NCBI GenBank assembly: GCA_958295895.1
Contig: CATQHI010000003.1
Location: 62,001 to 126,000, forward strand
Direction: 5' to 3'
Source: Saprospiraceae bacterium
GTDB lineage: Bacteria > Bacteroidota > Bacteroidia > Chitinophagales > Saprospiraceae
Length of the DNA: 64,000 nucleotides
Numbering within the stretch: the stretch's first letter is position 1; each line of letters starts with the position of its first letter. The notes beneath the pieces were generated by a model. That model did no database searches and was not told the DNA's origin. It saw only the letters and a program-made list of their open reading frames with translations. Below are positions 9,659-43,769 of the stretch, one piece after another. The translations under genes and the position numbers were made by a program.

Positions 9659-10990
9659 TTACATACCCTGCTCCTCAAAGTAAGACTTCTCAATTTTCTC
9701 GCCGGCCTGAACCTTCTCGATACGGGCTTTCATTTCATTGGAGGCATCGTAATTGTCGCGGCGGGCAAAGATCTCCTTGAGCGCGTTGAGGGTGTTTAGA
9801 TTGTTCGGATCGGTCTTCTCCGCCTTCTGAAAGTAGGGGTAGGCGATGTCAAACTCGGCGTTGATTTCCTTTTCGAGCGCCTCGTACTTGGCCTGACCTT
9901 CTTTACTGAAGTCGTTGCCGAGCTCCACCAGATCATTGGTCATGGTAGCGGCGCGGTTGTAGTACAGGGCACCGAGGCTGTAGATGAGGCTAGCGTTATC
10001 GGGCTCGATCTCTAGCCCCTTCTCGTAATTGGCCTTGGCCTGGTCAAAGTAACCGGCGGCGGCTTCGGGCTCCTCGGCACGCTTGGTCTGGTAGAGCTGG
10101 TCGTACACGGACCCAAGGGTGCTGTAGAGGCTCACGTTTTCGGGTTCGGCGGCGATGGCTTCTTCAAGCTTACCGGTCAGTTCGTCCAGTTTGCCCTGGG
10201 CGAGGTAGTAGTTGATCTCGGTGAAGAGCAGCTGAGTCTCGTCGGGAAACTTCTGGCGCCCCTCGTCGAGGTACTTACCGGCCTGGTCCATGTCTCCCTT
10301 ACCGCTGTATACTTTATAGAGTCCATCGTAGAGCCCCACGTCATTATAGCCTCCTTCGTAAAGCGCGAGGAACAGTGGCTCGGCGGCGGCGTAGTTTTCG
10401 TTAAGCACGGCGGATAGGGCGGCGTAGTAGCGCTCATCGTTCAGCTTGGTTTCGTCCGCGGCAAAGGCACTCTCTCCACCATTCTCAGTGAGGAAATCGT
10501 GGACCTGAACGCTCTTATTGAAGGCTTCGTAGCTGTCCTCGTAGTTCTTATCCTGGATGGCGTAAATACCCTCGTTGGAAATATTGCCCTGGAGGGTTTC
10601 GAGGCCCTTAAGGGCAGCTTTCTTACCGCTATTCTTGTCCGACATATTGTATGCCTTCATGTAGTAGTCAGCGGCAGTGGCGGCGGCACGGGCGACCATC
10701 GGCTCGATGGGCTCGTTGTTGGCCAGGGTACGGTCCTGTACGTACTGGTTAATGGCGGCGGAGTAGATGTCACCGGCCTCGATGTACGACTTATAATCGG
10801 CCTGCACCGTGGGGTCCTCCATAGCGACCATGACCGCATCAACGGCTTCCTGGAGCTTGACCGCGTCGCGGCTCGTGTTGTAGTTGTCGTAGGCCTTGGA
10901 AGCCTCCTTGAGTTGGTCCTCGCCACTCTGGGCGAAGGCGGTAGATACCGCAAGTAGTGCAACCAGTGCACTAAGGAATAAATTACGCAT
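9659..10990 (-). CDS. Exported tetratricopeptide-repeat protein
   Basis: A 443-residue protein starting with a standard Sec signal peptide (MRNLFLSALVALLAVSTAFA, cleavage before QSG). The rest is alpha-helical with several TPR-like units, for example YSTLGSVYDQLYQT and LIYSLGALYYNRAAT, each about 34 residues. TPR proteins are scaffolds for protein interactions, and this one should lie in the periplasm. It is 153 bp downstream of gyrA on the same strand. That gap shows only a small GTTG/CAAC hairpin. No enzymatic motif is present. Confidence 0.85.
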   Translation of the reverse strand: MRNLFLSALVALLAVSTAFAQSGEDQLKEASKAYDNYNTSRDAVKLQEAVDAVMVAMEDPTVQADYKSYIEAGDIYSAAINQYVQDRTLANNEPIEPMVARAAATAADYYMKAYNMSDKNSGKKAALKGLETLQGNISNEGIYAIQDKNYEDSYEAFNKSVQVHDFLTENGGESAFAADETKLNDERYYAALSAVLNENYAAAEPLFLALYEGGYNDVGLYDGLYKVYSGKGDMDQAGKYLDEGRQKFPDETQLLFTEINYYLAQGKLDELTGKLEEAIAAEPENVSLYSTLGSVYDQLYQTKRAEEPEAAAGYFDQAKANYEKGLEIEPDNASLIYSLGALYYNRAATMTNDLVELGNDFSKEGQAKYEALEKEINAEFDIAYPYFQKAEKTDPNNLNTLNALKEIFARRDNYDASNEMKARIEKVQAGEKIEKSYFEEQGM

Positions 10991-11143
10991 GATTAGGTTG
11001 TGTTGGTTTCAATGTATGTGTGTGCATACACCTCTGAGACGAGCGATCGCCCCGAAGGGTAATAGCAGAACGTTGAGCGTAGCCCCAACGATGGTTAAGG
11101 CTACCTTAAAATTATAAAACAGTCAGGTGCTATCCGTGTTCGG

Positions 11144-13849: not shown

Positions 13850-14594
13850 ATGGCAGAGTCGAAGCAGGTTGTCAAACCTTACGGAAAAAAGGAATCGAAG
13901 AAAGAGGAAGTAGGTCGGATGTTCGACTCCATTGCCCCCACCTACGACCTACTCAATCGGGGGTACCTCCTTTGGTATTGACACCCTGTGGCGGAAGAAA
14001 CTCATCGCCCAACTCAAGCCCCGAGAGCACCGTACCATCCTTGACGTAGCCACGGGCACGGCCGACGTAGCCATCCAGACCGTACTGCGCACCGGAGCCG
14101 ATCACGTCACCGGCGTAGACCTGAGTGAGGGGATGCTAGCCTACGGGCGGGTGAAGGTTAAAAAGTGGGGGCTGGAGGAGCGCATTACCCTCGAGCAGGG
14201 CGATAGCGAGGCACTGCCCTACACCGACGGGAGCTTCGATGCCGTCACGGTGGCCTTCGGCGTGCGCAACTTCGAACATCTGGAGCGGGGGCTGGCCGAG
14301 ATGCTACGTGTACTGCGGCCCGGCGGCAAGCTCATCGTACTAGAATTCAGTCGCGTGAGGTACGCACCGCTGCGTTGGGCGTTCAATTTTTACTTTGGCA
14401 AAATTATGTCGCTCATCGGCCGTTTACAGAGCCGAGACCCCCGGGCGTACGCCTACCTCTTCGAATCCGTCCAGGTTTTTCCGAGCGGTCCGGACTTTCA
14501 GGCAATCCTTCGGCGGGTCGGTTATAAAGACACTACATGGCAAGCACTTACACTGGGCGTCGCTTCTATCTACACGGCTTACCGGCCGCGCTGA
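13850..14594 (+). CDS. ubiE: Demethylmenaquinone methyltransferase UbiE/MenG (one apparent frameshift)
   Basis: SAM-dependent C-methyltransferase that completes menaquinone. Translation from the ATG at 13850 gives the family N-terminus, including RMFDSIAPTYDLLNR, then hits a stop. The remainder (SFGIDTLWRKKL, DVATGTADVAI, GVRNFEHLERGL, RPGGKLIVLEFS) continues in the next frame. Removing one G from the GGGGG run at 13959-13963 joins them as LNRGTSFGID, as expected for UbiE. The gene is therefore intact apart from one extra base in a homopolymer, probably a sequencing error. MqnB at 52743 shows the organism uses the futalosine route, so this is the menaquinone methylation step. The gene overlaps porT by 58 bp. 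Confidence 0.9.
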
Positions 14595-15283
14595 CTCTTT
14601 GCCTCACGATTTTCTGTTGCACCTGCGCACGCGCCCAGTTTGTCGGCGGGAACAACCGAAACTTCTACGATTTTCAGGCAAAGCCCTACTACTTTGGCAT
14701 CACCCTGGGCTTTAACTCGAGTCGCTACACCCCCTTCCGTAGTCGCGAGTTCCTGTACACCGATAGCATCGTCGGCGTGGAGAGCCTCAACGGGCCGGGC
14801 TTCAACTTGAACTTGATCGGCAACCTGAAGCTCGGCAAGTACTTCGACTTCCGCTTCACCCCGGGCTTCAACTTTGCGGAGCGTAACCTGAACTATACGC
14901 AGAGTACCCAACGGCGCGCACAGATTCAGGAAAAGGTAGAGGCTGTATTTATAGAATTGCCCTTTTACTTTCGCTACAAGTCAGCGCCCTACCGCGATAA
15001 GCGGCTATTTCTGATCGCTGGTATGAAGTATTCTTTCGACGTAGCCAGTGAGAGCCGTACGCGACAGGCGGAGGAGCTGGTACGTATCAGCCCCCATGAC
15101 TTTGCTGTAGAGTACGGGGCGGGAATTCAGATCTTTTTTCCCTTCTTCATCCTATCCCCGGAATTCAAGATCAGTCACGGCATCGGCAACACCCTGTTGT
15201 TTAACCCTACCTTACCGCAGAGTGTCATTCTGGATAAGGTGACAACACGCACCTTCACGATCTCCTTTCACATTGAGGGGTAG
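14537..15283 (+). CDS. porT: PorT family outer-membrane protein (type IX secretion/gliding)
   Basis: A 248-residue outer-membrane beta-barrel protein. A signal peptide (hydrophobic LPAALTLCLTIFCC, cleavage near ARA) leads into alternating aromatic strands (YYFGITLGFNSSRY, FDFRFTPGFNF, IELPFYFRYKSAP) and the chain ends with an aromatic/beta strand (FTISFHIEG). PorT is part of the type IX secretion machinery and characteristically follows ubiE in Bacteroidota genomes, as here. The two proteins with type IX sorting domains at 60013 and 61093 are matching substrates. Its stop codon directly abuts the stop of the convergent tpiA. Confidence 0.88.
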   Translation: MASTYTGRRFYLHGLPAALTLCLTIFCCTCARAQFVGGNNRNFYDFQAKPYYFGITLGFNSSRYTPFRSREFLYTDSIVGVESLNGPGFNLNLIGNLKLGKYFDFRFTPGFNFAERNLNYTQSTQRRAQIQEKVEAVFIELPFYFRYKSAPYRDKRLFLIAGMKYSFDVASESRTRQAEELVRISPHDFAVEYGAGIQIFFPFFILSPEFKISHGIGNTLLFNPTLPQSVILDKVTTRTFTISFHIEG

Positions 15284-16036
15284 TTACAGGGCTCGCACGA
15301 TGGCCGCAAAACTTTGCGCGTCGAGGCTTGCCCCCCCGACCAGCCCGCCATCCACATCGGGCTGGGCGAAGAGTTCGGCGGCGTTATCGGGCTTTACCGA
15401 GCCACCGTATAGGATGGTTATATTATCGGCGATCTCACTACCGAACTGGTTGCCGATCATGCGGCGAAGGTAGTCGTGCATCTGCTGCGCCTGCTCGCTG
15501 CTGGCCGTCACGCCGGTCCCGATGGCCCAGACGGGCTCGTAGGCGATCACTACTTCCCTGATCTGCTCCGGACTCAGCGAGCCCAGGGCTTGCTCTACCT
15601 GCTTACCGACGACCACCTCCTGATTGCCGGCCTCGCGGATGGCTAGTTTCTCGCCGCAGCAGTAGATAGGTTTCAGGCCAGCTGCGATGGCAGCTACGAT
15701 CTTACGATTGATGAGATCGTCGTCCTCCCCGGCGTACTCTCGTCGCTCGCTGTGGCCCAGGATCACGTACGCTACGCCTGCGTCGGCTAGCATCTCCGCG
15801 CTCACCTCACCGGTGTAGGCCCCCCTGGGTTCCTGGTGCATATTCTGGGCGGCCACGGCGTAGCCGGGGTGGTCTGTGAGCTGCTCGTGTACGGCCATGA
15901 GTTGGATTTCGGGTACGCCGAATACTACCCGGGTGGGGGGGGTGCCTAGTTTTTCCAGCACATCACGCACTAGCGCGTGGCCCTGACGGGGGGTGGTGTT
16001 CATTTTCCAGTTTCCGGCTACCATGGTGCGGCTCAT
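15284..16036 (-). CDS. tpiA: Triosephosphate isomerase
   Basis: A 250-residue glycolytic TIM-barrel enzyme that interconverts dihydroxyacetone phosphate and glyceraldehyde 3-phosphate. All catalytic residues are in place: Lys11 in GNWKMN, His95 in ILGHSERR and Glu167 in AYEPVWAIGTG, with the phosphate loop YGGSVKP near residue 211. Its stop (TAA) is immediately next to the porT stop with no base between them. Upstream lies a palindromic repeat element at 16098-16173. Confidence 0.97.
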   Translation of the reverse strand: MSRTMVAGNWKMNTTPRQGHALVRDVLEKLGTPPTRVVFGVPEIQLMAVHEQLTDHPGYAVAAQNMHQEPRGAYTGEVSAEMLADAGVAYVILGHSERREYAGEDDDLINRKIVAAIAAGLKPIYCCGEKLAIREAGNQEVVVGKQVEQALGSLSPEQIREVVIAYEPVWAIGTGVTASSEQAQQMHDYLRRMIGNQFGSEIADNITILYGGSVKPDNAAELFAQPDVDGGLVGGASLDAQSFAAIVRAL

Positions 16037-30784: not shown

Positions 30785-32035
30785 TTGAACTCAATAAACG
30801 AGGAGGCGGACCGCGGTCCGCTTGGCATAGCGATCATCGGGCTCGGTGGCGCCGTAGCCACCACCGCCGTAGCCGGCACATTACTTATTCAACGCGGTGA
30901 GCAAGGCACGACCGGTCTACCGCTCGCCGAACACAGCGACCTGGACCTCACCCCCTATACCGAGCTTCACTTCCGGGGCTGGGATCTATACGACGATAAT
31001 CTGCACGCCGCGGCCAAGCACCACCGGGTACTCGACCGGGAGCAGCTCGACGCCGTGGAAAAGGATTTACAGAAGATGCGCCCCTGGCCCGCCATCAGCA
31101 ACCGCAATTACTGCGAGGGCGTAGTCGGGGCCGCCGATAGCACCGAGACCCACCGTGAGCTAATCGCCGATATTCAGAACCGGCTGCGGGAGTTTGCCGC
31201 CGAGATCGGTGGCCGCGTCGTGGTGATTAACCTAGCCAGCACCGAACACGCTATCGACCCCAAGGAGACTATCTACCAGTCCGTAGATGCCTTCGAGCGC
31301 GGCGTGGAGGCCAACGATACCTCCATCAGCCCAGCCATGCTCTACGCCTACGCCTGTATCACCGCCGGCGTACCCTACGGTAACTTCACCCCCAGCCGCG
31401 CCGCCGATATCCCCGCGCTGCGCAAACTCGCTAATGAGCGTAACGTACCCGTAGCCGGTAAGGACGGCAAAACGGGCCAGACCTACATCAAGACCGTTCT
31501 GGCCCCGGCCCTGCGCGCCCGCGCCCTGCACGTGGACGGGTGGTTCTCGACCAACATCCTCGGCAATCGCGACGGGGAGGCCCTCCGTACGCCTAAGTCG
31601 TTGGAAAATAAGATCACCACGAAGGGTGACGTGCTCACCAACTGTCTGGGGTATCCCGTGGAGAGCCACCTGGTGCGGATCAATTACTATAAACCCCGCG
31701 GCGACGATAAGGAGGCCTGGGACAACATCGATATCTCCGGCTTCCTGGGTCAGCGCATGCAGATTAAGGTGGATTTCCTGTGTAAGGATAGCATCCTGGC
31801 CGCTCCCCTGGCCATCGAGATCGCCCGCTGTCTGGATCTTGCCGGCCGCCGGGGACGCGGCGGGGTAGTGGAGTCGCTCGGTGTATTTTTCAAGGCACCG
31901 ATGACCCGGGAGGGCGGGGCGCCTAACCACAATTTCGCCGAGCAACAACTTGAGCTGCTCCGCTGGCTTCACGAGACCGATGCCATGGCATCGCACAGCG
32001 CCGCCACCCCGGCCTCCGATACCGTCGCTGCCTGA
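30785..32035 (+). CDS. ino1: Inositol-3-phosphate synthase
   Basis: A 416-residue NAD-dependent enzyme converting glucose 6-phosphate to inositol 3-phosphate. It has the Rossmann loop GLGGAVATT (19-27), the catalytic lysine segment AGKDGKTGQTYIKTVLAP (225-242; compare DxKSGQTKxKS in eukaryotic enzymes), the STNILGNRDGEAL motif (255-267) and GDDKEAWDNIDISG near residue 312. It is the first gene of a nine-gene operon. The start is uncertain: TTG at 30785 is assigned, but the AGGAGG at 30763 is better placed for an ATT three codons upstream. In this operon the product is likely the inositol acceptor for the GT4 glycosyltransferase. Confidence 0.93.
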   Translation: MNSINEEADRGPLGIAIIGLGGAVATTAVAGTLLIQRGEQGTTGLPLAEHSDLDLTPYTELHFRGWDLYDDNLHAAAKHHRVLDREQLDAVEKDLQKMRPWPAISNRNYCEGVVGAADSTETHRELIADIQNRLREFAAEIGGRVVVINLASTEHAIDPKETIYQSVDAFERGVEANDTSISPAMLYAYACITAGVPYGNFTPSRAADIPALRKLANERNVPVAGKDGKTGQTYIKTVLAPALRARALHVDGWFSTNILGNRDGEALRTPKSLENKITTKGDVLTNCLGYPVESHLVRINYYKPRGDDKEAWDNIDISGFLGQRMQIKVDFLCKDSILAAPLAIEIARCLDLAGRRGRGGVVESLGVFFKAPMTREGGAPNHNFAEQQLELLRWLHETDAMASHSAATPASDTVAA

Positions 32036-32041
32036 CCGCCG

Positions 32042-32974
32042 ATGTTGCCGACCCTTGATTTAGTACGTACCGCAGGTCTGCTGGCCGAACTGCAGGACCT
32101 CAAACGGCTGCAACCCGCCCACCTGCCCCATAGTATCGCTACGGAGCTGTTCCGCGAGGCCTGGATGCGTGTGCTGCGGGGAGACGATACTACTGAGGTG
32201 GCCTTACGTACCACGCTGGTTGCCCTGACCAGTGTGCTGTTTCCGGGAGCGGATGGACGCTTCTTTACCGTGGCCGGACTGGATGAAACTGACATAGCGG
32301 AGGTGCTGCACAACGCGCTACGCCGTACCGGCGGTAGGGTGCTGGAGGGGCAGTTGTACGATCGACTCGCGGCCGGGATTCCCGACCTGGCGCAACAATT
32401 CGCCGGCCACGCCGAACAGGTGTACGAACTGCTTCCCGAAGCCCTCGTGGTGCTCTGCGACCAACCGCGAGCCGGTGCCACGCATCCGGAACTGCCCCGT
32501 TTAGTCCTAAGCCCGCCGGAGATGCACTCCGATCACTGCCTGATGACGGCCGTCTACGCCGTACTTTTTGCCGAGCAGTACGGAGCCAATCCTGGCACAG
32601 CCTTTCTGGGGGCGCTGGCCCATCACCTACACAATGCCTACCTACCCGACTGTGGCTACGCCGGAGAGCTCTGCCTGGGCCGCCACCTTCAGCAGGTGAT
32701 ACAAAACTGCCGGGCGGAAGCGCTCGCACAGTTCCCGTCGCAGCTGCGGCCCCGCATCACGGAGGCGCTGTACCACCACGAGCGAATTGACACGCCGGAA
32801 GGTCTGGCGATCAGTGCCGGAGACGTGCTCGACCGGGTCATCGACGTGAAGTGGCGAACGCGCGCCGCTGCGGTCACCGATCAGGATATCCTAGGTGAGC
32901 TGGACCTGGTACACCCCGGTCCACTCAAGGATTTTCAGACCGAGCTGCTAAGTGCCACCGGCTTATGGGGGTAG
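32042..32974 (+). CDS. HD-domain protein of unknown specificity (candidate phosphohydrolase)
   Basis: A 310-residue protein. Its second half has HD-superfamily-like metal ligands: HSDHCLMTAVYA (His162, His165), LAHHLHNAYLPDCG (194-204), EALYHHERIDTPEGLAIS (His245-His246) and AGDVLDRVID (Asp261). The first half is helical without recognised motifs. HD proteins hydrolyse phosphate esters or act as oxygenases (MIOX-like di-iron forms). In this operon it is a candidate phosphatase for inositol phosphate or its glycoside, or an inositol oxygenase-like enzyme. That role is inference. Six bases separate it from ino1, and it overlaps the next gene by 10 bp. Confidence 0.75.
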   Translation: MLPTLDLVRTAGLLAELQDLKRLQPAHLPHSIATELFREAWMRVLRGDDTTEVALRTTLVALTSVLFPGADGRFFTVAGLDETDIAEVLHNALRRTGGRVLEGQLYDRLAAGIPDLAQQFAGHAEQVYELLPEALVVLCDQPRAGATHPELPRLVLSPPEMHSDHCLMTAVYAVLFAEQYGANPGTAFLGALAHHLHNAYLPDCGYAGELCLGRHLQQVIQNCRAEALAQFPSQLRPRITEALYHHERIDTPEGLAISAGDVLDRVIDVKWRTRAAAVTDQDILGELDLVHPGPLKDFQTELLSATGLWG

Positions 32975-34122
32975 TGCTGCTGAGTCCCACGAACGGCCGC
33001 CCCCTGGTGCCGCGGGGACCGCATCTGCTCAGCGACGGGGAACGACTGTGGCCCATAGTAGAGGGCATTGCCTACCTGCGAGCCAGGGAAGAGTTGCGCC
33101 TGGCCGTAGTCGAGGCCCTACAGGCTGACCGGGAGGGCCAGGCAGTAAGGTTGCTACTGGCGGATCAGGATCGCTTTAGCCCCACCAGTCCACCGGATGA
33201 TGCCGCGCTGAATATCCTCCTCGAAGCCGGGGAGGAACTGACGCTGCGCCGGGCCATGGAGCTGCTCCATTTCGGCCCGGTAGCGGACTATTTCACCCAC
33301 CGCTGGTCCTCGCCAACCTTTGTGGGGGGATTGCGATTGCTGGAGCTGAGTGTGCCCAACCGAGACGGCCGGGTGGTAGAGTATGCCTGTGGCATCGGCC
33401 ATTTTCTACGGGAACTGGAGTCAATGGGCGTCAAGACCGTAGGCGTAGACATTGTATGGGCCAAGCTCTGGCTGGCACGCCGGTTTATGGGCGTGACTGG
33501 AACCCTGATCTGCGGTGATGTAGAAACTGGAACGGTGGTCGAGCCGGCCGAACGGTGCACCGTATTCTGTCACGATGCCCTGTACTTCTTGGAGCACAAG
33601 CAGTCCGCGCTCGACAACATGCGTCGCGCAGCGGCCGGGGGTAGGGTAGCAGTGGGGCACGTGCACACCCGGCTGGACCAGCACCGGGTCGGCTTTGCGG
33701 AGACGCTCACTGTCTATCGCCAGTTGACCCCGGGCACTACTGAGGACGACCGCTCGTACATTACCGCCTGGTTTACCGAAGGTCTGCCAACTGCGGCGAC
33801 CCAGCACAGCAGTGCCGTAGCCTGGATGGAAGGGGAAACCCTACCCGTTGCAGAGCAGCTGCACTTTAGGCCGGCACTAAGTGATCTGCAGCAGAATCCC
33901 CTACTCGGTCCCGGTGAGGTACGCTGGCCCACACAAGGGTGGCAACGGGAGTACCAGGAGGACGCCGCGCACATCGGTCCGTATACCCTTACGGACCTCG
34001 TGGCCGACCCGCTGGTGCAGCAGCTCGTGACCGGCTTAAGAGAGGTAAGCGACCTCTCCAAACAAGAGCGCCTTTCCCTCTACCGCCGCCAGGCACTGCT
34101 CAACCTACCCCCCCAGTGGTGA
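32965..34122 (+). CDS. Class I SAM-dependent methyltransferase with degenerate Trm112-like N-terminus
   Basis: A 385-residue protein. Residues about 1-40 (LSPTNGRPL, then LLSDGERLWPIVEGIAYLRA) resemble the Trm112-like ribbon that precedes many methyltransferases, but the zinc cysteines are missing. The Rossmann domain shows motif I VVEYACGIGHFLRELE and GVKTVGVDIVWAKL about residues 133-160. HDALYFLEHKQSALDNMRRA is the post-motif region. The last 100 residues are unusual. The substrate is unknown. A hydroxyl, amine or thiol of the operon's product is the likely target. It overlaps the next gene by 4 bp (GTGA). Confidence 0.83.
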   Translation: MGVVLLSPTNGRPLVPRGPHLLSDGERLWPIVEGIAYLRAREELRLAVVEALQADREGQAVRLLLADQDRFSPTSPPDDAALNILLEAGEELTLRRAMELLHFGPVADYFTHRWSSPTFVGGLRLLELSVPNRDGRVVEYACGIGHFLRELESMGVKTVGVDIVWAKLWLARRFMGVTGTLICGDVETGTVVEPAERCTVFCHDALYFLEHKQSALDNMRRAAAGGRVAVGHVHTRLDQHRVGFAETLTVYRQLTPGTTEDDRSYITAWFTEGLPTAATQHSSAVAWMEGETLPVAEQLHFRPALSDLQQNPLLGPGEVRWPTQGWQREYQEDAAHIGPYTLTDLVADPLVQQLVTGLREVSDLSKQERLSLYRRQALLNLPPQW

Positions 34123-35120
34123 CCCGCTTCGGTATTGTCGGCTATGGTTGGGTGGCGCAGGATTACATGCTACCCGCCCTGCAGGCACATCCGGAGACGG
34201 AGCTCTGTGCCGTGGTCAGCGTGCGGGAGGAAGACTTCGTGAACCTGCCCGGGGGGGTGCGTCCCTACACCTCCGTCGGAAGTATGCTCGCCGCTGAGGC
34301 CCTGGACGCGGTGTACGTAGCCTCCCCCAATTACCTCCACCCCGAGCACGTGGCGGCCTGCACCGCAGCGGGGATCGACGTACTCTGCGAAAAACCCCTG
34401 GCCCACACCTATGCCGCTGCCGAGGAGCTCGGGCGAGCGGTGCGGGCGGCGGGGGTGCACTACGCGACGGCCTACGATCAGCGCCACCACCCGGCCCACC
34501 GTCTGATGCGCGATTGGGTAGCGGCGGGAAGGTTAGGTACCATTACCCAGGTGCGGCTCGACTACGCCTGCTGGCTGCCCGCCGGCTGGAGTGCCGACAA
34601 CTGGCGCATCGACCCCGCAAGGGCCGGCGGCGGGGCCATCATCGACCTGGCACCCCACGGACTCGATCTGCTGGAAATGCTGCTCGGTCAGGCCATCGTG
34701 CAGCTGCATATATTCCAGCAACGCGCCGTGCAGGAGTACACCGTAGACGATGGTGGCGTGCTCAGTATGGCCTTCCGGGGGGGGGCTCTCGGCGTGCACA
34801 CGGTGGGCTACAACCGCCCGGAGACCCTACCCCGCCGCCGCATCGAACTCATCGGTACCGAGGGCATGCTCACGGCCGAGAACACGATGGGGCAGGACCC
34901 CGGCGGTACCCTTACTTTTCTGCCGGCAGCACAACTGGGCGGCGGAGCGCAGGTGCTGCCCTTTGATGGAACGATAAGCCCCTTCTACCTCCAGCTCGAT
35001 TCCTTCCTCCGCCAGCGGCAGGGGCTCGCTACCTATCCGCAACGTACCTTAAACGATGATCTCCGGCTCGCGAAACTACTCGACGATGCCCTGGCAGCAA
35101 ATCCTATACTATGGCCCTGA
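34119..35120 (+). CDS. Gfo/Idh/MocA family oxidoreductase
   Basis: A GTG start at 34119 overlapping the upstream TGA gives 333 residues. The Rossmann loop is FGIVGYGWVAQDYMLPAL, the catalytic-lysine motif is DVLCEKPLAHTYAAAEEL, and GGGAIIDLAPHGLDLLEMLLG is the C-terminal domain signature. Such enzymes oxidise or reduce a ring hydroxyl of sugars or inositols with bound NAD(P). Next to an inositol synthase and an inosose-isomerase-like TIM barrel, an inositol or glycosyl-inositol dehydrogenase is the best guess. A GTG one codon upstream is an alternative start. Confidence 0.9.
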   Translation: MTRFGIVGYGWVAQDYMLPALQAHPETELCAVVSVREEDFVNLPGGVRPYTSVGSMLAAEALDAVYVASPNYLHPEHVAACTAAGIDVLCEKPLAHTYAAAEELGRAVRAAGVHYATAYDQRHHPAHRLMRDWVAAGRLGTITQVRLDYACWLPAGWSADNWRIDPARAGGGAIIDLAPHGLDLLEMLLGQAIVQLHIFQQRAVQEYTVDDGGVLSMAFRGGALGVHTVGYNRPETLPRRRIELIGTEGMLTAENTMGQDPGGTLTFLPAAQLGGGAQVLPFDGTISPFYLQLDSFLRQRQGLATYPQRTLNDDLRLAKLLDDALAANPILWP

Positions 35121-35953
35121 CGCACTACGCCTGTACCCACTGCGGGGGTTGGATCCTCTGGTTCGACAGCCGCGAGCCCGTGGCCTGCCCCAACTGCACC
35201 GATGTGAGGAACGCCCTGCCGCAGGAAGATTTTACCTATTTACCCATCGGGGAGGCTCCGGGGCAGTTTTCTACCCAGTGGCAGGAGACCCTACCGGGAC
35301 TCTGGGAATTTTGGACCACCCCGCAGCTCGGCCTGGGCTCCCACGGCTGGCTGCTACAGCGTGACGAAGGCAACATTGCCTTCGAGGCCGCGCCATTCTA
35401 CGATGAGGCCTCGCGCAGGCAGCTAGCGGTACTAGGCGGCATCCGGGTCCTGGCCGCCTCCCATCCCCACGGCTACGGGGCGCTCTGGCAGCTACAGAAG
35501 TTCTTCGACCCCGAGCTCATCATTCACAAGGACGATCTGAAGTACACGAAGGCCTTTCGGGTAAATCACCCCATCGACGACTTTCACGCCATTGGTGCAG
35601 AGCACGAGATGCTGCGCCTGGGGGGGCACTACGAGGGGCAAACCGCCCTGTACGATCACCCCCGCCGCATCCTTTTTCTGGGCGATGCCCTCAAGATCGA
35701 CTTTGACGCTGCCGGTGTACCCGTAGCGCTAAGCTGCCACAAGGGCTACCACTACGCCATCCCACTGACGCGCGACGAACTGCTGCACTACCGTGAGGTG
35801 TTCGGTCGCTTTGACTTCGCCCACGTCTGCACCCCCTTTGAATTCGGCCGGGGGGTGAACCAGGCCCTAGCTACGGCACTTATCGATTACTTACTAACCC
35901 ACGGCATCCACACCAGCCCGGTGCCACTCACAAGCCTTCAAGCGTATGTCTGA
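35111..35953 (+). CDS. Metallo-beta-lactamase-fold protein with N-terminal zinc ribbon
   Basis: A 280-residue protein. The first 30 residues form a ribbon (ACTHCGGW and VACPNCTDV, CxxC-x16-CxxC). The rest is MBL-like: a lasso of strands, LAASHPHGYGALWQL in place of the usual HxHxDH, LRLGGHYEGQTALY and RILFLGDALKIDF. Later histidines (ALSCHKGYHYA) complete a possible metal site. The altered signature means either a non-canonical metal site or a subfamily specialised for redox or hydrolysis. It overlaps the dehydrogenase gene by 10 bp and the ycaO gene by 8 bp. Confidence 0.8.
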   Translation: MALTHYACTHCGGWILWFDSREPVACPNCTDVRNALPQEDFTYLPIGEAPGQFSTQWQETLPGLWEFWTTPQLGLGSHGWLLQRDEGNIAFEAAPFYDEASRRQLAVLGGIRVLAASHPHGYGALWQLQKFFDPELIIHKDDLKYTKAFRVNHPIDDFHAIGAEHEMLRLGGHYEGQTALYDHPRRILFLGDALKIDFDAAGVPVALSCHKGYHYAIPLTRDELLHYREVFGRFDFAHVCTPFEFGRGVNQALATALIDYLLTHGIHTSPVPLTSLQAYV

Positions 35954-37427
35954 TCAGCTGGACCGTGCCCTTTCCGCCTACCGAAATTCCCTGCCCCAGG
36001 GTACTTACGAGACCCTACGTATTGACGGGTCCGACTACCTCGGGATCCCAATCTATAACGTGGACCTATTCACCCCAGATAGTTATTACAGTGGCATCGG
36101 TTACGGAGCCAACGAGACCGAAGCCCTGGTGGGCGCTTACGGTGAGCTTGCGGAAGACTGCCACCTACAACTTTCTTTCCCTAAGCTACCCATCCGTGAG
36201 GCTAGCTACGCGGAGTTGGTACACGAACACGGGAAAGACGGGGTGCTCGATCCGCTGACGCTGGTCCTGCCAGCCGGCTCCCCGTATACTGCGGAGACCC
36301 GTCTACGCTGGGTGCCGATCGAGCGGCTACGGGATGGTGCCCGGGTCTGGTGTCCGGCTGAGTTTGTAGTGAGCGGGGACTGGGAGCTTCCCGACTATGA
36401 CGATAAGCTCACGACCTGTATTTCCAACGGCACCGGCGCGGGCGATACCGAGGAGCGTGCCATCCTCCACGCCCTGCTCGAGCTCCTCCAGCGCGACGGC
36501 AACGCCGATAGCTTTCGGGCACTGGATCGCGGTCGGGTCATCGATCCCGCTACCGTGAGTGAGTCCGTGCGGGAGATTATCGCTTACCTCAGAGGGAAAG
36601 GTCTAGATGTCACGCTCAAGCTGGCCCGGGTAACCTGCGGCTGCGCCAGCGTTTACGCGGTCGGCGATGACGTAAGCTCCGATGCCTTCGGGCTGAGTGC
36701 TACGGCCTGCGGAGAGGCTGCCGACCCCGACATCAACAAGGCGTTACGCAAGGCGGTACTCGAATGCGCCAGTAGCCACAGTCGCAAGCGCTTCAACAAT
36801 CTACCCTTCCGGCGACTGGACGGCGACGTGCCCGACGATTACTTCGACCGCATCCGGGCAGCAATCGACCTAGACACCGAAGAGGAACGGGCACTGCGTG
36901 CCATGGTAGAGTTTGTCACCTCCGACAAGTCCGTCGTACGGCGGCGGCTGGCGGGTAGTGTCTTTAGCCACCGCGAGACCGTCGCCGCTAGAGATCTTCC
37001 GACACTCCCGCAGGCGGAGGTACCCGAGCAATTGCGGTACGTGCTCCGCCAGCTAGGCGAAAACGGAATGGAACCCTACGTGTTCCGTGCTGCCACCGCC
37101 GGCCCCGACTGCCACGCCGTCAAGGTCGTCGTACCGGATATGGAGATGGAGTTCGGCAGTTACCACCGTATCGGTCACCGCGGGGTACAACGGCTGCTGC
37201 AGGACGACCCCTTCAAGCTGCTGAGCCGTGAGCCGGCAGCGGGCTGCCAACGTATCCGACTTACGGATCAGCGGGAGCGGGAGGTAGGGGGCCCCTGCTA
37301 CCTCAATACCGCCCGCCTGGATGCGCTCATCGAGCCGCTTTACGGACTGTACCGGGAGCCCACCGCCCACGCGGCCCCCATTGCCCTGGAGGAAGATTAC
37401 TTTGGTAGTAAATCCGTCATCGCGTGA
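35946..37427 (+). CDS. YcaO-domain ATP-dependent enzyme
   Basis: A 493-residue YcaO protein. The three nucleotide/Mg-binding segments are intact: YGANETEALVGAYGELAED (53-71), ISNGTGAGDTEERAILHALL (159-178) running into ELLQRD, and ACGEAADPDINKALRKAVLE (254-273) then CASSHSRK. YcaO enzymes phosphorylate an amide oxygen, enabling azoline, thioamide or amidine formation. The C-terminal PxPxP of azoline-forming cyclodehydratases is absent (the chain ends DYFGSKSVIA). No E1-like or ocin-ThiF partner, TfuA, dehydrogenase or precursor peptide is nearby, so a small-molecule substrate is likely. It overlaps the TIM-barrel gene by 4 bp. Confidence 0.92.
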   Translation: MSDQLDRALSAYRNSLPQGTYETLRIDGSDYLGIPIYNVDLFTPDSYYSGIGYGANETEALVGAYGELAEDCHLQLSFPKLPIREASYAELVHEHGKDGVLDPLTLVLPAGSPYTAETRLRWVPIERLRDGARVWCPAEFVVSGDWELPDYDDKLTTCISNGTGAGDTEERAILHALLELLQRDGNADSFRALDRGRVIDPATVSESVREIIAYLRGKGLDVTLKLARVTCGCASVYAVGDDVSSDAFGLSATACGEAADPDINKALRKAVLECASSHSRKRFNNLPFRRLDGDVPDDYFDRIRAAIDLDTEEERALRAMVEFVTSDKSVVRRRLAGSVFSHRETVAARDLPTLPQAEVPEQLRYVLRQLGENGMEPYVFRAATAGPDCHAVKVVVPDMEMEFGSYHRIGHRGVQRLLQDDPFKLLSREPAAGCQRIRLTDQREREVGGPCYLNTARLDALIEPLYGLYREPTAHAAPIALEEDYFGSKSVIA

Positions 37428-38278
37428 GACTGCGTTACGCATATAACACCAATGGAGCGGCGCATCACAGGCTCCCGGACGCCCTCCGGCTGATCGCCGA
37501 GGCCGGCTACGACGGAGTCGCGCTCACCCTTGACTGGCACCACCTTGACCCCCTTGGCGAGCACTGGCAGGCCGATACCTACAACGTTCACCGTCTTCTG
37601 CAAGAGTACGGGCTCAGCGTAGTCATTGAGACCGGTGCCCGCTACCTGCTCGATCCCAACGATAAGCACGAGCCTACGCTGATCAGTCCCTTACCGCAGG
37701 ACCGCGCCCGCCGGATAGCCTTTCTAAAGCGGGCCGTCGATATTGCCAAGCTCCTACACGCCGAGACGGTTTCCTTCTGGGCCGGTGTGCGCAAGCAGGC
37801 CGTCGCAGAGAAGGAAGCCTACCATCACCTTGGCGAGGGCCTACTGAGAGTTGCCGATTACGCCGAGCAGGAGAACGTGCACATCAGCCTGGAGCCGGAA
37901 CCTGGCATGTTCATCGAAACCAATACCGACTACCAGCGCCTACTCGATACCCACCCTTCCCTCCACGACCGCCTTCACCTGGCGCTCGACCTCGGCCACG
38001 TCTGGGTCACCGGTGAAGATGACCCCGCCCGGGCCGTACACCGCTATGCCGATCGCCTCGGCACCGTCTCCATCGAGGGTATGAACCGGGGCCAGCACCT
38101 CCACCTGCCGCTTCACGAGGGCGACATGGAAATAAAGCCGCTTTTAGAAGCCCTACACGATGTTAAGTTTGACCGCCTGGTCTGCGTAGAGTTGAGCCGC
38201 GAGAGCGTGCGGGCCCACCACGCCATTCCGGAGAGTATTGCTTACTTGCGGGAGGTGGAAGGATCGCTGGATAGTTGA
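37424..38278 (+). CDS. Xylose-isomerase-like TIM-barrel protein (sugar/inosose isomerase or epimerase type)
   Basis: A 284-residue AP-endonuclease-2/xylose-isomerase-like barrel starting at a GTG that overlaps the ycaO stop. Metal-binding acidic residues are where the fold needs them: HISLEPEPGMFIE, HLALDLGHVWVTGE, VSIEGMNRGQHLHLPLHEG and LVCVELSRES. Members include inosose isomerase/dehydratase (IolI/IolE), tagatose epimerases and hydroxypyruvate isomerase. With a Gfo/Idh/MocA partner, it would rearrange a keto-inositol or keto-sugar. The 47-bp gap after it is the largest inside the operon and contains no small reading frame I can support. Confidence 0.88.
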   Translation: MRLRYAYNTNGAAHHRLPDALRLIAEAGYDGVALTLDWHHLDPLGEHWQADTYNVHRLLQEYGLSVVIETGARYLLDPNDKHEPTLISPLPQDRARRIAFLKRAVDIAKLLHAETVSFWAGVRKQAVAEKEAYHHLGEGLLRVADYAEQENVHISLEPEPGMFIETNTDYQRLLDTHPSLHDRLHLALDLGHVWVTGEDDPARAVHRYADRLGTVSIEGMNRGQHLHLPLHEGDMEIKPLLEALHDVKFDRLVCVELSRESVRAHHAIPESIAYLREVEGSLDS

Positions 38279-38325
38279 TTCGGCGCTGAGGGACCCTTCC
38301 CCTAACCCATTTACCCCCTTACACC

Positions 38326-39591
38326 GTGCGCATCTGTTTCATCTCCCGCCGCTACTTCCCCGCCGTCTCCGGCATGAGCGTTTACGCCCGTAACCTGACC
38401 AGGGCACTGAGCGAGCGCGGCCACGAGGTGGTCATGATCAGCCAGTACCGGGAGGATCCCACCGGGGTGCGCATCTACGGTGGGGGCCCCCCGCCCCAGG
38501 AGCCGTGGATGGAGGTGCACGGACTGCGTTCCACCGGCGAGGAACAGGGCGTTGATAACCCCCCCGCCGACTTCGAAGCGGACACCCGCGCCATGGTCGC
38601 GCTGGCCGAGCGGCTGCACGCGCAGCGGCCCTTTGATGTGGTGCACGCCCAGTATGCTTATCCCACCGGACTGGCCGCCCTGGAGGTAAGTCGGCGGCTC
38701 GGTATTCCTAACGTAGTATCTATTCAGGGGGGCGACGGACACTGGGTGGGGCTCTGCTGCACCACCCACCACCGGGCCATGCAGGCCGTGCTCGATCATA
38801 GCATGGCACTGGTCATCGGCTGTGCGAGTTTTCGCGACGAGGTGGTCGACAATCACGGTACCGCAGCGGAGCGCTTCACGATCATTCCGGGAGCAACGAA
38901 TACCGAGCAGTTCCGCCCCCGCTCCACGGCGGTAGGGGCGTTGCGCGCACCGGCCCGACTGCTCTACCACGGGCGGGTGGACGCGCGCAAGGGGAGCCTC
39001 GACTTTATCCACTGCGGCAAGGCCTTGATCGAGGCCGGCTTCGCCCTTCGGCTCATTGTCTCCGGTATCGGACCGGACTTCGACGCCACGGTGGCCCTCG
39101 CGCACGAGCTAGGTATCGCTGACTGCACGGAATTTCCCGGTGAGGTAGCCTACGCCGATGCGCCCGCCCGCTACCACGCCGGCGACATCTTTCTGAGCCC
39201 CACTTACGCCGAGGGCTTTTCCAATACCATCCTCGAGGCCATGGCCAGCGGACTGCCCATCGTCAGTACCCGTACCGTCGGCGTGGTCGACTGCGTACGC
39301 GACGGCGAAAACGGACTACTGGTCAAGGCCGGTGATCTGGCCGCCCTTACCGCCGCTACCCGCTCGCTCCTCGAGCAGCCGGAGCTACGCCGCAAACTCG
39401 CCACCACGGCCCTGGAAGAAGTGCACGCCACGTATTCCTGGCCCGTGGTGGCCGCCCAAATTGAGGGAGAATACCAACGGCTAACCGGTACGCCCCTCGA
39501 TACCGCGTGGACCGACATCATCACCGTCGACGAACGGGCGGAACATGCCGACCTGAGTTGCCGCTTCCGCACCCAACCCCACCTGCTGTGA
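38326..39591 (+). CDS. GT4 family glycosyltransferase (MshA-like role proposed)
   Basis: A 421-residue GT-B enzyme starting at GTG. The N-terminal FPAVSGMSVYARNLTRALSE loop, the central LLYHGRVDARKGSLDFI and the C-terminal nucleotide-sugar motif SPTYAEGFSNTILEAMASG (Ex7E) are typical of GT4. MshA of mycothiol biosynthesis belongs to this family and joins GlcNAc to inositol 3-phosphate. Co-occurrence with ino1 and a PIG-L deacetylase supports a similar reaction here, but the donor and acceptor are inferred. It overlaps the deacetylase gene by 4 bp. Confidence 0.88.
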   Translation: MRICFISRRYFPAVSGMSVYARNLTRALSERGHEVVMISQYREDPTGVRIYGGGPPPQEPWMEVHGLRSTGEEQGVDNPPADFEADTRAMVALAERLHAQRPFDVVHAQYAYPTGLAALEVSRRLGIPNVVSIQGGDGHWVGLCCTTHHRAMQAVLDHSMALVIGCASFRDEVVDNHGTAAERFTIIPGATNTEQFRPRSTAVGALRAPARLLYHGRVDARKGSLDFIHCGKALIEAGFALRLIVSGIGPDFDATVALAHELGIADCTEFPGEVAYADAPARYHAGDIFLSPTYAEGFSNTILEAMASGLPIVSTRTVGVVDCVRDGENGLLVKAGDLAALTAATRSLLEQPELRRKLATTALEEVHATYSWPVVAAQIEGEYQRLTGTPLDTAWTDIITVDERAEHADLSCRFRTQPHLL

Positions 39592-40355
39592 TCCTGGTGT
39601 TCTCGCCCCACCTCGACGATGCCGTCTTTTCCTGCGGTGGACTGCTAGGCCAGCTATCCGGCGAACTGGTGCGGGTGGTGACCTGCTTTACCCGCTCGGT
39701 GCCCGATCCCCGGGGGTTTGCGCTAGCCTGTCAGCTCGATAAGGGACTTCCCCCCGGGGTAGATTACATGGCGCTGCGCCGGGCCGAGGACGAAAAGGCC
39801 ATGGAGCTACTCGGCCTGTACCCCGAGCATTGGGACCTCCCCGAGGCCCCCCACCGCGGCTACGAAAGTGCCCCCGCTCTCTTTGTCGGCGTCCATGCTG
39901 ACGACACGATCCAGGAGGAGCTCCGCCAGCGGGTGGCTTCCGTCATCTACGATTACCGCCCGTTGACCATTTTCTATCCCCTGGGAGCCGGCAACCATGC
40001 TGATCATCTGCAGGTCATCCAGGCAGTGAAATCACTGAAAAAATACTGGGAGCAGGTAGATTTTATCCAGTACTACGACCAGCCCTACACCCACCGTCAT
40101 CCCAACGCGTACACTGATATTGATACTGCCACCCCACTGCATACGTCCGAAAAACTTCCGGCAAAGCAGACGCTGGGCTATTCGTTGACCCCCGCTACCT
40201 TACGGGTCAAGTACGCCGCCTGCCTGACCTACGCTACCCAGATCGGGTTCCAGTTCAAGGACCGGCAGGGCATGGAAGCATTGCTCGGTGACCGCGAGTA
40301 CTACCGCACCACCCGCGCTAGCCTGCGGCCTCTAGTATACGGCGCAGGTTCGTAA
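39588..40355 (+). CDS. PIG-L/LmbE family N-deacetylase
   Basis: A 255-residue zinc enzyme from the GTG at 39588. The metal-binding motif is SPHLDDAVFSCGG (His8, Asp10, Asp11) and the second ligand set is NHADH (136-140). The family includes MshB, BshB and GlcNAc-PI deacetylase, which remove acetyl from GlcNAc-inositol or GlcNAc-malate. It follows the GT4 gene with a 4-bp overlap, so deacetylation of that enzyme's product is the natural reading. Its last 38 bp overlap the convergent START-domain gene. Confidence 0.92.
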   Translation: MILVFSPHLDDAVFSCGGLLGQLSGELVRVVTCFTRSVPDPRGFALACQLDKGLPPGVDYMALRRAEDEKAMELLGLYPEHWDLPEAPHRGYESAPALFVGVHADDTIQEELRQRVASVIYDYRPLTIFYPLGAGNHADHLQVIQAVKSLKKYWEQVDFIQYYDQPYTHRHPNAYTDIDTATPLHTSEKLPAKQTLGYSLTPATLRVKYAACLTYATQIGFQFKDRQGMEALLGDREYYRTTRASLRPLVYGAGS

Positions 40356-40959: not shown

Positions 40960-41077
40960 AGGTTGCAATAACGGAAAAGATCGCCGTACGTTGTGAACAC
41001 CGAATCTTTCCCTACCTTAGTCACGGCAACCGGTTGTATTCCGGTCGATCATGGTTTACAATTACTTTACCGTCCCT

Positions 41078-42439
41078 ATGCTTCAAACCGGCACCACGCT
41101 ACTCCTATTCCTGGCTACAACCGCTTTGTCGGCCCAGTCGCAATTCACCTCCCTGACCAATGGGCGCGACCTCAGCAACTGGGAAACCTACGGCGGTCAG
41201 GCCCCCTATTCCCTTTCCGGCGATACCGTCACCGGAACGGCCGTAGTCAATACTCCGAACACTTTCTTGTGTACGGAGCGTCCTTACTCCGACTTCGTTC
41301 TCACCCTGGAATTCAACGACGATGCTCCCCTGAACAGTGGCGTGATGGCGCGGGGACAGTGGCGGCAGGACGGTGACATCCGCCGCATCTACGGCTACCA
41401 GGTAGAAATCGACCCGAGCGCCCGCGGCTACACCGGTGGTATCTACGACGAGGCACGCCGGGGTTGGATCTATCCCCTCCACTATAATGACGGGGCCCGC
41501 CAGCTCTACCGCCAGGGCGAGTGGAACGAGATGCGCGTCGAGGCCATCGGTGACAACCTGCGGACTTACATTAACGGAAAGGCCGCCGCCAACCTGGTCG
41601 ATAGTGTGGATGCCTCGGGCCTGATTTGTCTGCAGGTGCACGCCATCAAGGAGGATCTGGCCGGGAAGCAGGTGCGCTGGCGCAACATTCAATTGCTCGA
41701 TAACGCGACCGAAGCCGACCGGATGCAGGCCGTACAGGCACCGGTAGAAAACATGATGGTCAACGACCTGACGGAGGCCGAGCGGCGGCAGGGGTGGCGC
41801 CTGCTCTTCGACGGTAGCTCGACCCAGGGCTGGCGGGGGGCAAAGCTCGATGAGTTTCCGGCCTCCGGCTGGGAGGTCGCGGACGGTGAGCTGCGCGTGC
41901 TGCCCGGTAACGGGGGGGAGAGCACGAACGGGGGCGATATCGTGACGAAGGATAACTTCAGCAACTTCGAGCTGGTCTTTGAATTCAAACCGGCGGAAGG
42001 GGCTAATAGTGGCGTGAAGTACTTCGTGGACCCCGACCTGAATAAGGGCCAGGGCTCGGCCATCGGCCTGGAGTATCAGATCCTGGACGACGAGCGTCAT
42101 CCGGACGCGAAGCTAGGCGTAATGGGTAACCGAACGATGGCCTCCCTCTACGACCTCATCCCCGCCGCGGTCATGGACGTGCCCGGCCGGGGTAAGGAGT
42201 ACAAGATCGGGCAGTGGAATCGCGGCCGCATCGTCTCCAGGGACGGCCACGTCGAGCACTGGCTCAATGGCTACAAGGTAGTCGAGTACGACCGCCTGAG
42301 CCCCATGTTCCAGGCACTGGTCAACTACAGTAAATACCGCGACTGGGAAAACTTCGGTCGCTTCCCCCAGGGGCCCATTCTGCTACAGGATCACGGCGAT
42401 GCCGTGGCCTTCCGCACCATCAAAATCCGTGAACTTTAA
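41078..42439 (+). CDS. Exported protein with two DUF1080 (3-keto-disaccharide hydrolase) domains
   Basis: I use the ATG at 41078, which gives a signal peptide MLQTGTTLLLFLATTALSAQ. An ATG at 41051 would add nine residues. The 453-residue chain has two concanavalin-like DUF1080 domains, about 22-205 (FTSLTNGRDLSNWETYGG, MRVEAIGDNLRTYINGK) and 232-453 (WRLLFDGSSTQGWRGAK, NSGVKYFVD, VEHWLNGYKVVEYDR). DUF1080 enzymes cleave 3-keto-glycosides made by Gfo/Idh-type dehydrogenases. The next gene encodes such an exported oxidoreductase, so the pair forms a periplasmic glycoside-degrading unit. Confidence 0.92.
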   Translation: MLQTGTTLLLFLATTALSAQSQFTSLTNGRDLSNWETYGGQAPYSLSGDTVTGTAVVNTPNTFLCTERPYSDFVLTLEFNDDAPLNSGVMARGQWRQDGDIRRIYGYQVEIDPSARGYTGGIYDEARRGWIYPLHYNDGARQLYRQGEWNEMRVEAIGDNLRTYINGKAAANLVDSVDASGLICLQVHAIKEDLAGKQVRWRNIQLLDNATEADRMQAVQAPVENMMVNDLTEAERRQGWRLLFDGSSTQGWRGAKLDEFPASGWEVADGELRVLPGNGGESTNGGDIVTKDNFSNFELVFEFKPAEGANSGVKYFVDPDLNKGQGSAIGLEYQILDDERHPDAKLGVMGNRTMASLYDLIPAAVMDVPGRGKEYKIGQWNRGRIVSRDGHVEHWLNGYKVVEYDRLSPMFQALVNYSKYRDWENFGRFPQGPILLQDHGDAVAFRTIKIREL

Positions 42440-42449
42440 GTCGATTACC

Positions 42450-43769
42450 ATGAGCAACCGCCGCACTTTTATCAAAAAAACCGCCCTGGCCACCGCCGGG
42501 CTCGGACTGGGGCTGCCGGCCTACAGCCGTACCCAGGTGATGGGTGCCAACGACCGGGTCAACGTAGCCGTCTTCGGTACCAACAGCCGCGGGGAGTACC
42601 TGGCCGGAACCTTTGCCACCGTCCCGGACTGCCGGGTGATGGGTATTGGCGATGTGGACACCCGGGCCATCGCCAAGGGGCAGAAACGTGTAGTAGAGAA
42701 GGGTGGTAAGGAGCCTAAGGGCGATCAGGACTTCCGGCGCTTCCTCGACGACAAAAAGATCGATGCGGTGGTCATCGCTACCCCCGACCACTGGCACGCC
42801 CCCATGGCCATGATGGCCCTCGATGCCGGTAAGCACGTCTACGTCGAAAAACCCTGTAGCCACAATCCGGCCGAGGGTGAGATGCTGGTCGCCAAGCAGG
42901 GTAAAAGTGGACTAAAGGTGCAGATGGGTAACCAAACCCGTAGCAGCGTAAGCCTCAACAAGGTGGTCAAGGAAATTCACGATGGCCTGATCGGCGACGC
43001 CTACGCGGGTAAGGCCTGGTACGCCGCCACACGCGGACCGATCGGTGAGCACGAATCCGCCCCCGTGCCCGAATGGCTCGACTGGGAGCTCTGGCAGGGA
43101 CCGGCCCCGCACCAGGATTTTGACGCCCTTCTGGTGCACTACAACTGGCATTGGTTCTGGAAGTACGGCACCGGGGAGCTGCTCAATAACGGTACCCATG
43201 AGGTAGATATGTGCCGCTGGGCGCTTGGCGTAGACTTTCCCGAGCAGGTCACCTCTACCGGCGGCCGCTTCTCCTTTGACGATGCCTGGCAGGCCTACGA
43301 CACCCAGCTGGCCGGCTTTAATTTCCCCGGCGGGAAGCACATTCACTGGGACGGACGTAGCTGCAACGGCATGCCGCTCTGGGACCGCGGTCGTGGCTCC
43401 ATGATTTACGGTACCGAGGGTAGCGTACTAATGGACCGTAACGGCTACATCGTTTACGATCTACAGGGCAAGGAGCTGCGCCGCGAGGAAGAAAGTGAGG
43501 CCTCCGTAAGTATGGACACCACCGGTGGCGGCAACTTAGACGAGCTGCACATCGGCAACTTCATCCGCGGGGTGAACTCCGATGAGAAGCTCAACTCCGC
43601 CGTTGCCGATGCGAATCCGAGCGTAACCATTTGCCACCTCGGTAACATGGCCCAGCGCACCAATAGCGTACTGAAGTGTGACCCCGCTACGGGTAAGCCC
43701 CTCGATAATCCCGAAGCGCTTGCTCTCTGGCAGCGGGAGTACGAACAAGGGTGGGCTCCGACGGTCTAG
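42450..43769 (+). CDS. Tat-exported Gfo/Idh/MocA family oxidoreductase
   Basis: From the ATG at 42450, 439 residues with a Tat signal (NRRTFIKKTALATAGLGLG). The Rossmann domain starts VNVAVFGTNSRGEY, the catalytic motif is HVYVEKPCSHNPAEGE, and GTGELLNNGTHEVDMCRWAL is the C-terminal signature. Exported members of this family oxidise glycosides at C3 or act on sugars with prebound cofactor. It lies 10 bp after the DUF1080 gene, supporting a shared 3-keto-glycoside pathway. This is a different subfamily from the cytosolic dehydrogenase at 34119. Confidence 0.93.
   Translation: MSNRRTFIKKTALATAGLGLGLPAYSRTQVMGANDRVNVAVFGTNSRGEYLAGTFATVPDCRVMGIGDVDTRAIAKGQKRVVEKGGKEPKGDQDFRRFLDDKKIDAVVIATPDHWHAPMAMMALDAGKHVYVEKPCSHNPAEGEMLVAKQGKSGLKVQMGNQTRSSVSLNKVVKEIHDGLIGDAYAGKAWYAATRGPIGEHESAPVPEWLDWELWQGPAPHQDFDALLVHYNWHWFWKYGTGELLNNGTHEVDMCRWALGVDFPEQVTSTGGRFSFDDAWQAYDTQLAGFNFPGGKHIHWDGRSCNGMPLWDRGRGSMIYGTEGSVLMDRNGYIVYDLQGKELRREEESEASVSMDTTGGGNLDELHIGNFIRGVNSDEKLNSAVADANPSVTICHLGNMAQRTNSVLKCDPATGKPLDNPEALALWQREYEQGWAPTV

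Follow-up and report, generated by a model that had tools for sequence, protein, structure and literature searches.

A 64,000-nucleotide stretch of DNA from a Saprospiraceae bacterium (contig CATQHI010000003.1, positions 62,001 to 126,000; hereafter the window) carries nine consecutive genes that bring a YcaO protein together with enzymes of sugar and cyclitol chemistry. The operon is real, conserved and mobile, and we consider it reasonably probable that it has spread horizontally and serves to make a tailored amino-sugar–cyclitol, small and polar. The product is probably a sugar–inositol compound, and it may help the carriers to live in strong light. The genes occupy positions 30785-40355 of the window in the following order:

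30785..32035, + strand: ino1, myo-inositol-1-phosphate synthase (Ino1), 416 amino acids, TTG start (PF07994, 200.2 bits; PF01658, 107.8 bits)
32042..32974, + strand: HD-fold protein, 310 amino acids, probable phosphohydrolase-like (PF01966, 20.8 bits, under the cut-off of 22)
32965..34122, + strand: S-adenosylmethionine-dependent methyltransferase, 385 amino acids, an optional tailoring gene (PF13649, 27.9 bits, cut-off 27)
34119..35120, + strand: Gfo/Idh/MocA dehydrogenase, 333 amino acids (PF01408, PF22725)
35111..35953, + strand: N-terminal zinc ribbon followed by a metallo-beta-lactamase (MBL) fold, 280 amino acids (by fold comparison; no match in Pfam)
35946..37427, + strand: YcaO ATP-dependent enzyme, 493 amino acids, a subfamily of its own (PF02624, 173.9 bits, cut-off 25.7)
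37424..38278, + strand: AP_endonuc_2 TIM barrel, 284 amino acids, isomerase/epimerase/dehydratase-like (PF01261, 129.9 bits)
38326..39591, + strand: GT4 glycosyltransferase, 421 amino acids (PF13692, PF00534)
39588..40355, + strand: PIG-L (LmbE) family N-deacetylase, 255 amino acids (PF02585, 55.6 bits)

The tight packing on one strand that a preliminary description of this DNA had reported is confirmed, the coordinates and the junction lengths being in agreement (in order, +6, -10, -4, -10, -8, -4, +47 and -4 bp). The dehydrogenase and the PIG-L protein most likely start at GTG codons (positions 34119 and 39588), each inside a GTGA overlap. The operon has a G+C content of 62.9%, against 60.5% for the window, in which Rfam and tRNA scans gave no matches.

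One argument for a single biosynthetic unit, as the preliminary description had also supposed, is that the genes are mostly not scattered among relatives. Genome contigs were scanned once with a six-row YcaO profile and the best 80 of 233 relatives were kept; five fetched loci (four plasmid records and one genome of the window's phylum) brought the set to 85, biased to close relatives of the window's YcaO, and nine profile hidden Markov models were applied to it. All nine genes stand in the window order in 46 of the 85 loci. Fourteen lack only the MBL gene and are all from Methylobacteriaceae, the 14 loci read from this family each carrying the other seven genes besides YcaO and no MBL. M. aquaticum 22A (L005), for instance, carries such an MBL-free operon. 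Five lack only the methyltransferase (L007, L008, L014, L019 and L020) and four only ino1 (L017 and L048, together with L039 and L065, which start at a contig end); YcaO is alone in six (L031, L045, L061, L063, L081 and L088), and the remaining ten are rearranged, partial or cut by a contig end (L013, L015, L016, L018, L024, L043, L046, L047, L051 and L071). A core of seven genes is present, irrespective of order, in 70 rows, one of them the window. The absence of the methyltransferase and of MBL from some lineages points to a tailoring role for these two. The proteins have also diverged in parallel: pairwise distances, computed like the tree below from protein calls based on open reading frames, correlate at 0.85-0.97 across the 49 sets that are complete, of which the window is one, whereas the maximum for YcaO against the other proteins was 0.15 in 500 permutations. 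At L008:8405-10747 (-), MBL and YcaO form one open frame of 780 amino acids, which argues that MBL works with YcaO. YcaO itself occurs in two copies in L012 and L024 and in three in L016 (tandem copies, Myxococcaceae), which suggests diverged subunits or substrates.

The 80 scanned loci cover six phyla: 43 belong to Pseudomonadota, 22 to Actinomycetota, nine to Myxococcota, three to Bacteroidota, one to Planctomycetota and one to Chloroflexota, and one is unplaced. The Planctomycetota locus misses ino1 and the TIM barrel gene on its contig and the Chloroflexota locus is rearranged. Shares of genomes by lineage, which count YcaO rather than the whole operon, are strikingly uneven. A search among other Bacteroidota had been proposed at the outset, and YcaO proved rare there, with 2 carriers among 395 genomes taken from the phylum of the window, one of them the window's own, and 1 among 120 from its family, again the window's own; of the groups tested, it is commonest in Methylobacterium (108 of 111 genomes) and Geodermatophilus (21 of 26). 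It was also found in 16 of the 151 Sphingomonas genomes drawn, and in 4 of 199 genomes drawn from the order of Methylobacterium, all four being Methylobacterium. The best reading is a pathway that has spread horizontally and patchily. Four plasmid records carry the operon (Roseomonas, two Methylobacterium and Hymenobacter). In the concatenated tree of the 70 rows, built with FastTree, which warned of long branches, Actinomycetota group together, as do Myxococcota and as do three labelled Bacteroidota with the window; Skermanella and Aerophototrophica branch with Myxococcota; Hymenobacter and L008 branch with Chloroflexota, apart from the window's group. On the Hymenobacter plasmid record (L007), the dehydrogenase gene (10081-11129) and the GT4 gene (14350-15587) are each broken across two frames, by decay or by sequencing error.

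The genomic site tells a similar story. The window operon is inserted between a pabC-like gene (PF01063), which with a pabB-like gene (PF00425) lies on its 5' side, and a convergent gene on its 3' side with weak, sub-threshold polyketide-cyclase/START-type matches (hereafter the START gene). A pabC search gave a match in 21 of 21 genomes of the same genus, and 12 loci were fetched, one of them the window. Among the other 11, pabC and the START gene are adjacent in seven (L110-L116), the operon sits at the same place as in the window in one (L109), and no START gene lies within 1.5 kb in three. In Lewinella sp. IMCC34191 (L010), the operon lies upstream of pabB, with a pseudouridine-synthase gene on its other side, instead of in the interval from pabC to the START gene; one neighbourhood thus holds the operon in two places. 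Within the genus, at least three genomes have the operon and YcaO is missing from two others searched (G006 and G116). The 3-keto-disaccharide hydrolase (PF06439) and the second Gfo/Idh/MocA gene at 41051-43769, 3' of the operon, are probably not part of it, because the hydrolase adjoins the START gene in the seven same-genus loci without the operon there.

The families of the nine proteins are recognizable and several of their active sites are unusual. Among the NCBIfam hits listed for the nine, no score reached its cut-off. Ino1, which is 55-60% identical to the copies in five other loci, scores above the cut-offs of PF07994 and PF01658 and at 28.4 bits on the mycothiol-type INO1 model (cut-off 638). 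The HD protein resembles YfbR/HDDC2 in a structure comparison, its best E-value in a PDB sequence search being 0.037; H162, H165, H194, H195 and D261 are invariant in 16 of 16 aligned proteins, with a His-His (H194-H195) where a His-Asp pair is expected. A reading as an inositol oxygenase (MIOX) finds no MIOX among the 50 VIA-align fold rows listed. In MBL, HxHx[YF]G replaces HxHxDH, and H173, D192 and H210 are invariant in all 16 aligned copies; the L008 protein misses the first Cys pair of the window's zinc ribbon. PDB sequence searches with MBL gave no match in one case and weak ones in the other (best E 6e-4). We take the conserved HD, MBL and zinc-ribbon positions to be metal ligands in the relatives. 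The dehydrogenase, whose best PDB relative is 1,5-anhydro-D-fructose reductase, keeps EKP and D176/H180 in 15 of 15 aligned sequences, and the PIG-L protein keeps SPHLDD and H137/D139/H140, presumably its zinc site, in 16 of 16. More generally, the dehydrogenase, TIM barrel, PIG-L and GT4 proteins retain in the alignments conserved blocks that we assume to be their catalytic motifs.

The YcaO protein deserves separate attention. E67, E70, E179, R183 and D184 are invariant in 17 of 17 aligned copies, and all 17 read E..QRDG, with Gln182, where the solved relatives MJ1094 and LynD have E..ERD; E..E and E..ERD are, we assume, acidic ATP/Mg motifs. Its best solved relative is MJ1094, of the type involved in McrA thioamidation, with which it shares the YcaO fold and a matching C-terminal stretch. 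The protein also matches the NCBIfam models for SagD (98.7 bits) and McrA thioamidation (86.5 bits), as would be anticipated if the operon were a protein-modifying or RiPP system (ribosomally synthesized and post-translationally modified peptide) with sugar tailoring. We regard this as highly improbable: both scores are under their cut-offs (219.25 and 365), neither a partner cyclodehydratase nor a TfuA family member is among the nine genes and, unlike McrA-type and azoline RiPP YcaOs, the operon protein has the invariant Gln for Glu and keeps company with sugar and cyclitol enzymes. A genome-mining paper on Acetobacteraceae places one YcaO cluster of Roseomonas mucosa among RiPP clusters (PMC8776678).

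How could such a set of enzymes cooperate? We infer all substrates, all reactions and the product from the gene families. Ino1 would convert glucose 6-phosphate to inositol phosphate, to which GT4 would join an N-acetylhexosamine, probably GlcNAc; the HD protein would strip the phosphate and PIG-L would remove the acetyl group, leaving a free amine. The dehydrogenase and the TIM barrel protein would rework either the cyclitol or the sugar, by an oxidation followed by an epimerisation or a dehydration. YcaO, assisted by MBL, would spend ATP on making a carbonyl reactive, be it that of an amide or that of an enolised diketone in its vinylogous-acid form, so that an amine or sulfide can attack it, and the methyltransferase would tailor the product. 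In its core logic the set is akin to amino-sugar–cyclitol pathways already known, and the presence of Ino1, GT4 and PIG-L in one operon makes a glucosaminyl-inositol core plausible.

These three families are also what the operon has in common with mycothiol synthesis (MshA and MshB with Ino1), and the GT4 and PIG-L logic is that of bacillithiol synthesis (BshA and BshB), so that a mycothiol-like thiol acting as redox buffer has to be weighed. At equivalog level, however, Ino1 and GT4 do not belong to the mycothiol families, and the three proteins are accompanied by YcaO, the dehydrogenase, the TIM barrel, HD, MBL and the methyltransferase. GT4 scores 91.2 bits on MshA (TIGR03449, cut-off 462.5) and 92.5 bits on BshA (cut-off 273.7), and PIG-L 23.8 bits on BshB1 (cut-off 182.5), the MshB model being absent among its listed NCBIfam hits. 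Moreover, no family of cysteine ligases or acetyltransferases, and no other cysteine-adding enzyme, is represented: the MshC ligase and the MshD acetyltransferase are both absent from the nine genes, the rest of the genome not having been searched for them. Actinomycetota carriers generally make mycothiol already. A thiol buffer thus appears very unlikely. For the amino-sugar–cyclitol itself, the preliminary description had specified a modified glucosaminyl-inositol; the biosynthetic unit stands, and the core is a matter of family-level inference, GT4 and PIG-L being far under the mycothiol and bacillithiol cut-offs and the nearest PDB relatives of PIG-L being glycopeptide pseudoaglycone deacetylases. 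The claim that no pathway with this gene set had been described agrees with the open-access literature, in which, as far as the top of the longer result lists goes, no paper describing the nine genes was found.

Several observations weigh against the pathway as we have drawn it. The donor, the acceptor and the order of steps are guesses, because GT4, PIG-L, Ino1 and the TIM barrel protein miss every listed NCBIfam cut-off, and no metabolite is known for the operon. To judge from their residues, at least one of YcaO (Gln for Glu), HD (His-His) and MBL (incomplete metal motif) may be inactive. High distance correlations are also expected where the hosts share their ancestry, and most rows of the tree cluster by phylum, which means that a large part of the spread may be ancient. 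A search at E<=1e-10 gave no Ino1 in three genomes, those of L017, L048 and L039 (the last a metagenome-assembled genome, or MAG, with the locus at a contig end); inositol may therefore be imported there, or the scaffold may differ. Finally, YcaO proteins of the same subfamily do without the other eight genes in the six loci mentioned above. GT4, present in 9 of the 15 genomes searched for it, is found in only one of the six genomes concerned (that of L061) and is missing from those of L031, L045, L063, L081 and L088, and YcaO may thus be used outside the pathway. Near the lone YcaO of L031 and of the two Aureimonas loci (L081 and L088), the sequence shows genes resembling ABC sugar permeases. 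Corallococcus llansteffanensis (L018) has the dehydrogenase gene, YcaO and an ino1 fragment, in a genome without GT4, and its operon looks like a case of decay.

Neighbours of the operon were counted from crude open reading frames over whole loci. In 22 of the 85 loci, all alphaproteobacterial by record title, PIG-L is followed in the same orientation by what amounts to a tenth operon gene, of the uracil-DNA-glycosylase (UDG) superfamily (e.g. L076:14439-15092; three were tested and score 36.9-42.2 bits on PF03167). With starts estimated from alignments, it overlaps PIG-L or is at most 41 bp away in 20 of the 22, the other distances being 89 and 271 bp. Two Skermanella loci have it beside ino1, divergent on the opposite strand, and none was found in the window between 20001 and 52000. 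Further sugar genes are near the operon, in keeping with the amino-sugar–cyclitol reading: a GalE-like epimerase in 22 of the 85 loci and an MdoH-like GT2 in 20. Transporters of the major facilitator superfamily (MFS) are found in 14. Spore photoproduct lyases occur near the operon in L004; as a recurrent partner this gene was rejected, since it is intact in that locus alone and L013 has just a match of 79 residues.

The locus L013, on an Isosphaeraceae contig, recalls another cyclitol-type system. A PRK06203-type cyclase gene, which we take to be EboD-like, precedes HD there (490-1806) and opens the operon. The ebo cluster includes a cyclase, a TIM barrel and UbiA, and thus shares with our operon the association of a cyclitol-type enzyme with a TIM barrel; the TIM barrel protein of the window, however, reaches 19.1 of 250 bits on EboE (NF035939), all seven of its NCBIfam hits being under cut-off, and the window operon has no ebo genes. 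The same genome encodes, on a second contig (L106), two TIM barrels together with a homologue of Ino1 and, as we read the sequence, a UbiA-like protein. We had considered that the cyclase replaces ino1 and the TIM barrel in L013 and abandoned the idea: with the Ino1 homologue (42% identity across 281 residues) and a TIM barrel relative (43-44%) both present on this other contig, no replacement need be assumed. Among 45 Isosphaeraceae genomes, GT4 was found in one, that of L013.

What the amino-sugar–cyclitol does for its carriers can be approached from their distribution. The combination of amino-sugar, cyclitol and amide-activating families, the carriage on plasmids and the MFS transporters of 14 of the 85 loci could indicate an antibiotic or an enzyme inhibitor, i.e. 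an aminoglycoside-like pseudodisaccharide bearing an amidine or a thioamide made by YcaO. Near-universal presence in a genus is, however, unusual for antibiotic clusters, and this is what is seen in two of the genera tested; no resistance gene is among the nine either. We hold an antibiotic or inhibitor to be improbable.

It is more tempting to think of light. Mycosporines and gadusol are built from a cyclitol-derived ring by methylation and ATP-driven coupling of an amine, the latter performed in mycosporines by an ATP-grasp enzyme. By analogy, oxidation and dehydration of the cyclitol could give a cyclohexenone-like ring, and YcaO could use ATP to couple an amine to its vinylogous acid, giving a sunscreen that absorbs ultraviolet A (UVA). 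If so, the ring, the methylation and the ATP-driven coupling would be common to both systems; the DHQ-synthase-kind cyclase and the ATP-grasp enzyme of the mycosporine/gadusol pathways, by contrast, are not among the nine genes of the window. Compounds that absorb UVA have been reported from phyllosphere Methylobacterium, one of them named methylobamine, which, or the parent of which, would be the Methylobacterium product. Several facts fit: (i) this is the very genus in which YcaO is nearly universal (108/111), the only one to have it in the draw of 199 genomes from the order, and Geodermatophilus follows with 21/26; (ii) some carrier strain names indicate leaf, air, crust or lichen; and (iii) the UDG-superfamily neighbour of 22/85 loci would suit a light-stress module, as would the spore photoproduct lyases of L004. 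Others do not. The chromophore is not readable from the genes, and a review passage on the Methylobacterium compounds has the words 'such as avobenzone'. Many other genes are also core to Methylobacterium; Aureimonas, of the same order, has YcaO alone; an intact spore photoproduct lyase occurs in just one of the 85 loci; and the carriers include Corallococcus and Streptomyces, both soil genera (a myxobacterium and a streptomycete), as well as the MAG of L011, which, to go by its name HyVt, may come from a hydrothermal vent. On balance, a UVA sunscreen is possible and rather doubtful. Its most explicit version is a little more doubtful still: an inositol-based, independently evolved mycosporine-like sunscreen, in which Ino1, the dehydrogenase and the TIM barrel protein would make a cyclohexenone-type ring and YcaO, in place of an ATP-grasp enzyme, would couple a glucosamine-derived amine, and which would be the UVA absorber of Methylobacterium, spread partly by plasmids among leaf, air, crust and sea-surface bacteria of six phyla.

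Whichever its use, the product of this amino-sugar–cyclitol operon is probably worth keeping, given that YcaO is near-universal in the leaf genus Methylobacterium (108/111) and that the operon recurs in one order across phyla and on plasmid records. YcaO enzymes are known from peptides and proteins, and a YcaO in sugar–cyclitol company would widen the known range of the family. If the independently evolved sunscreen is real, its YcaO would be, to our knowledge, the first of the family to build a sugar–cyclitol metabolite.

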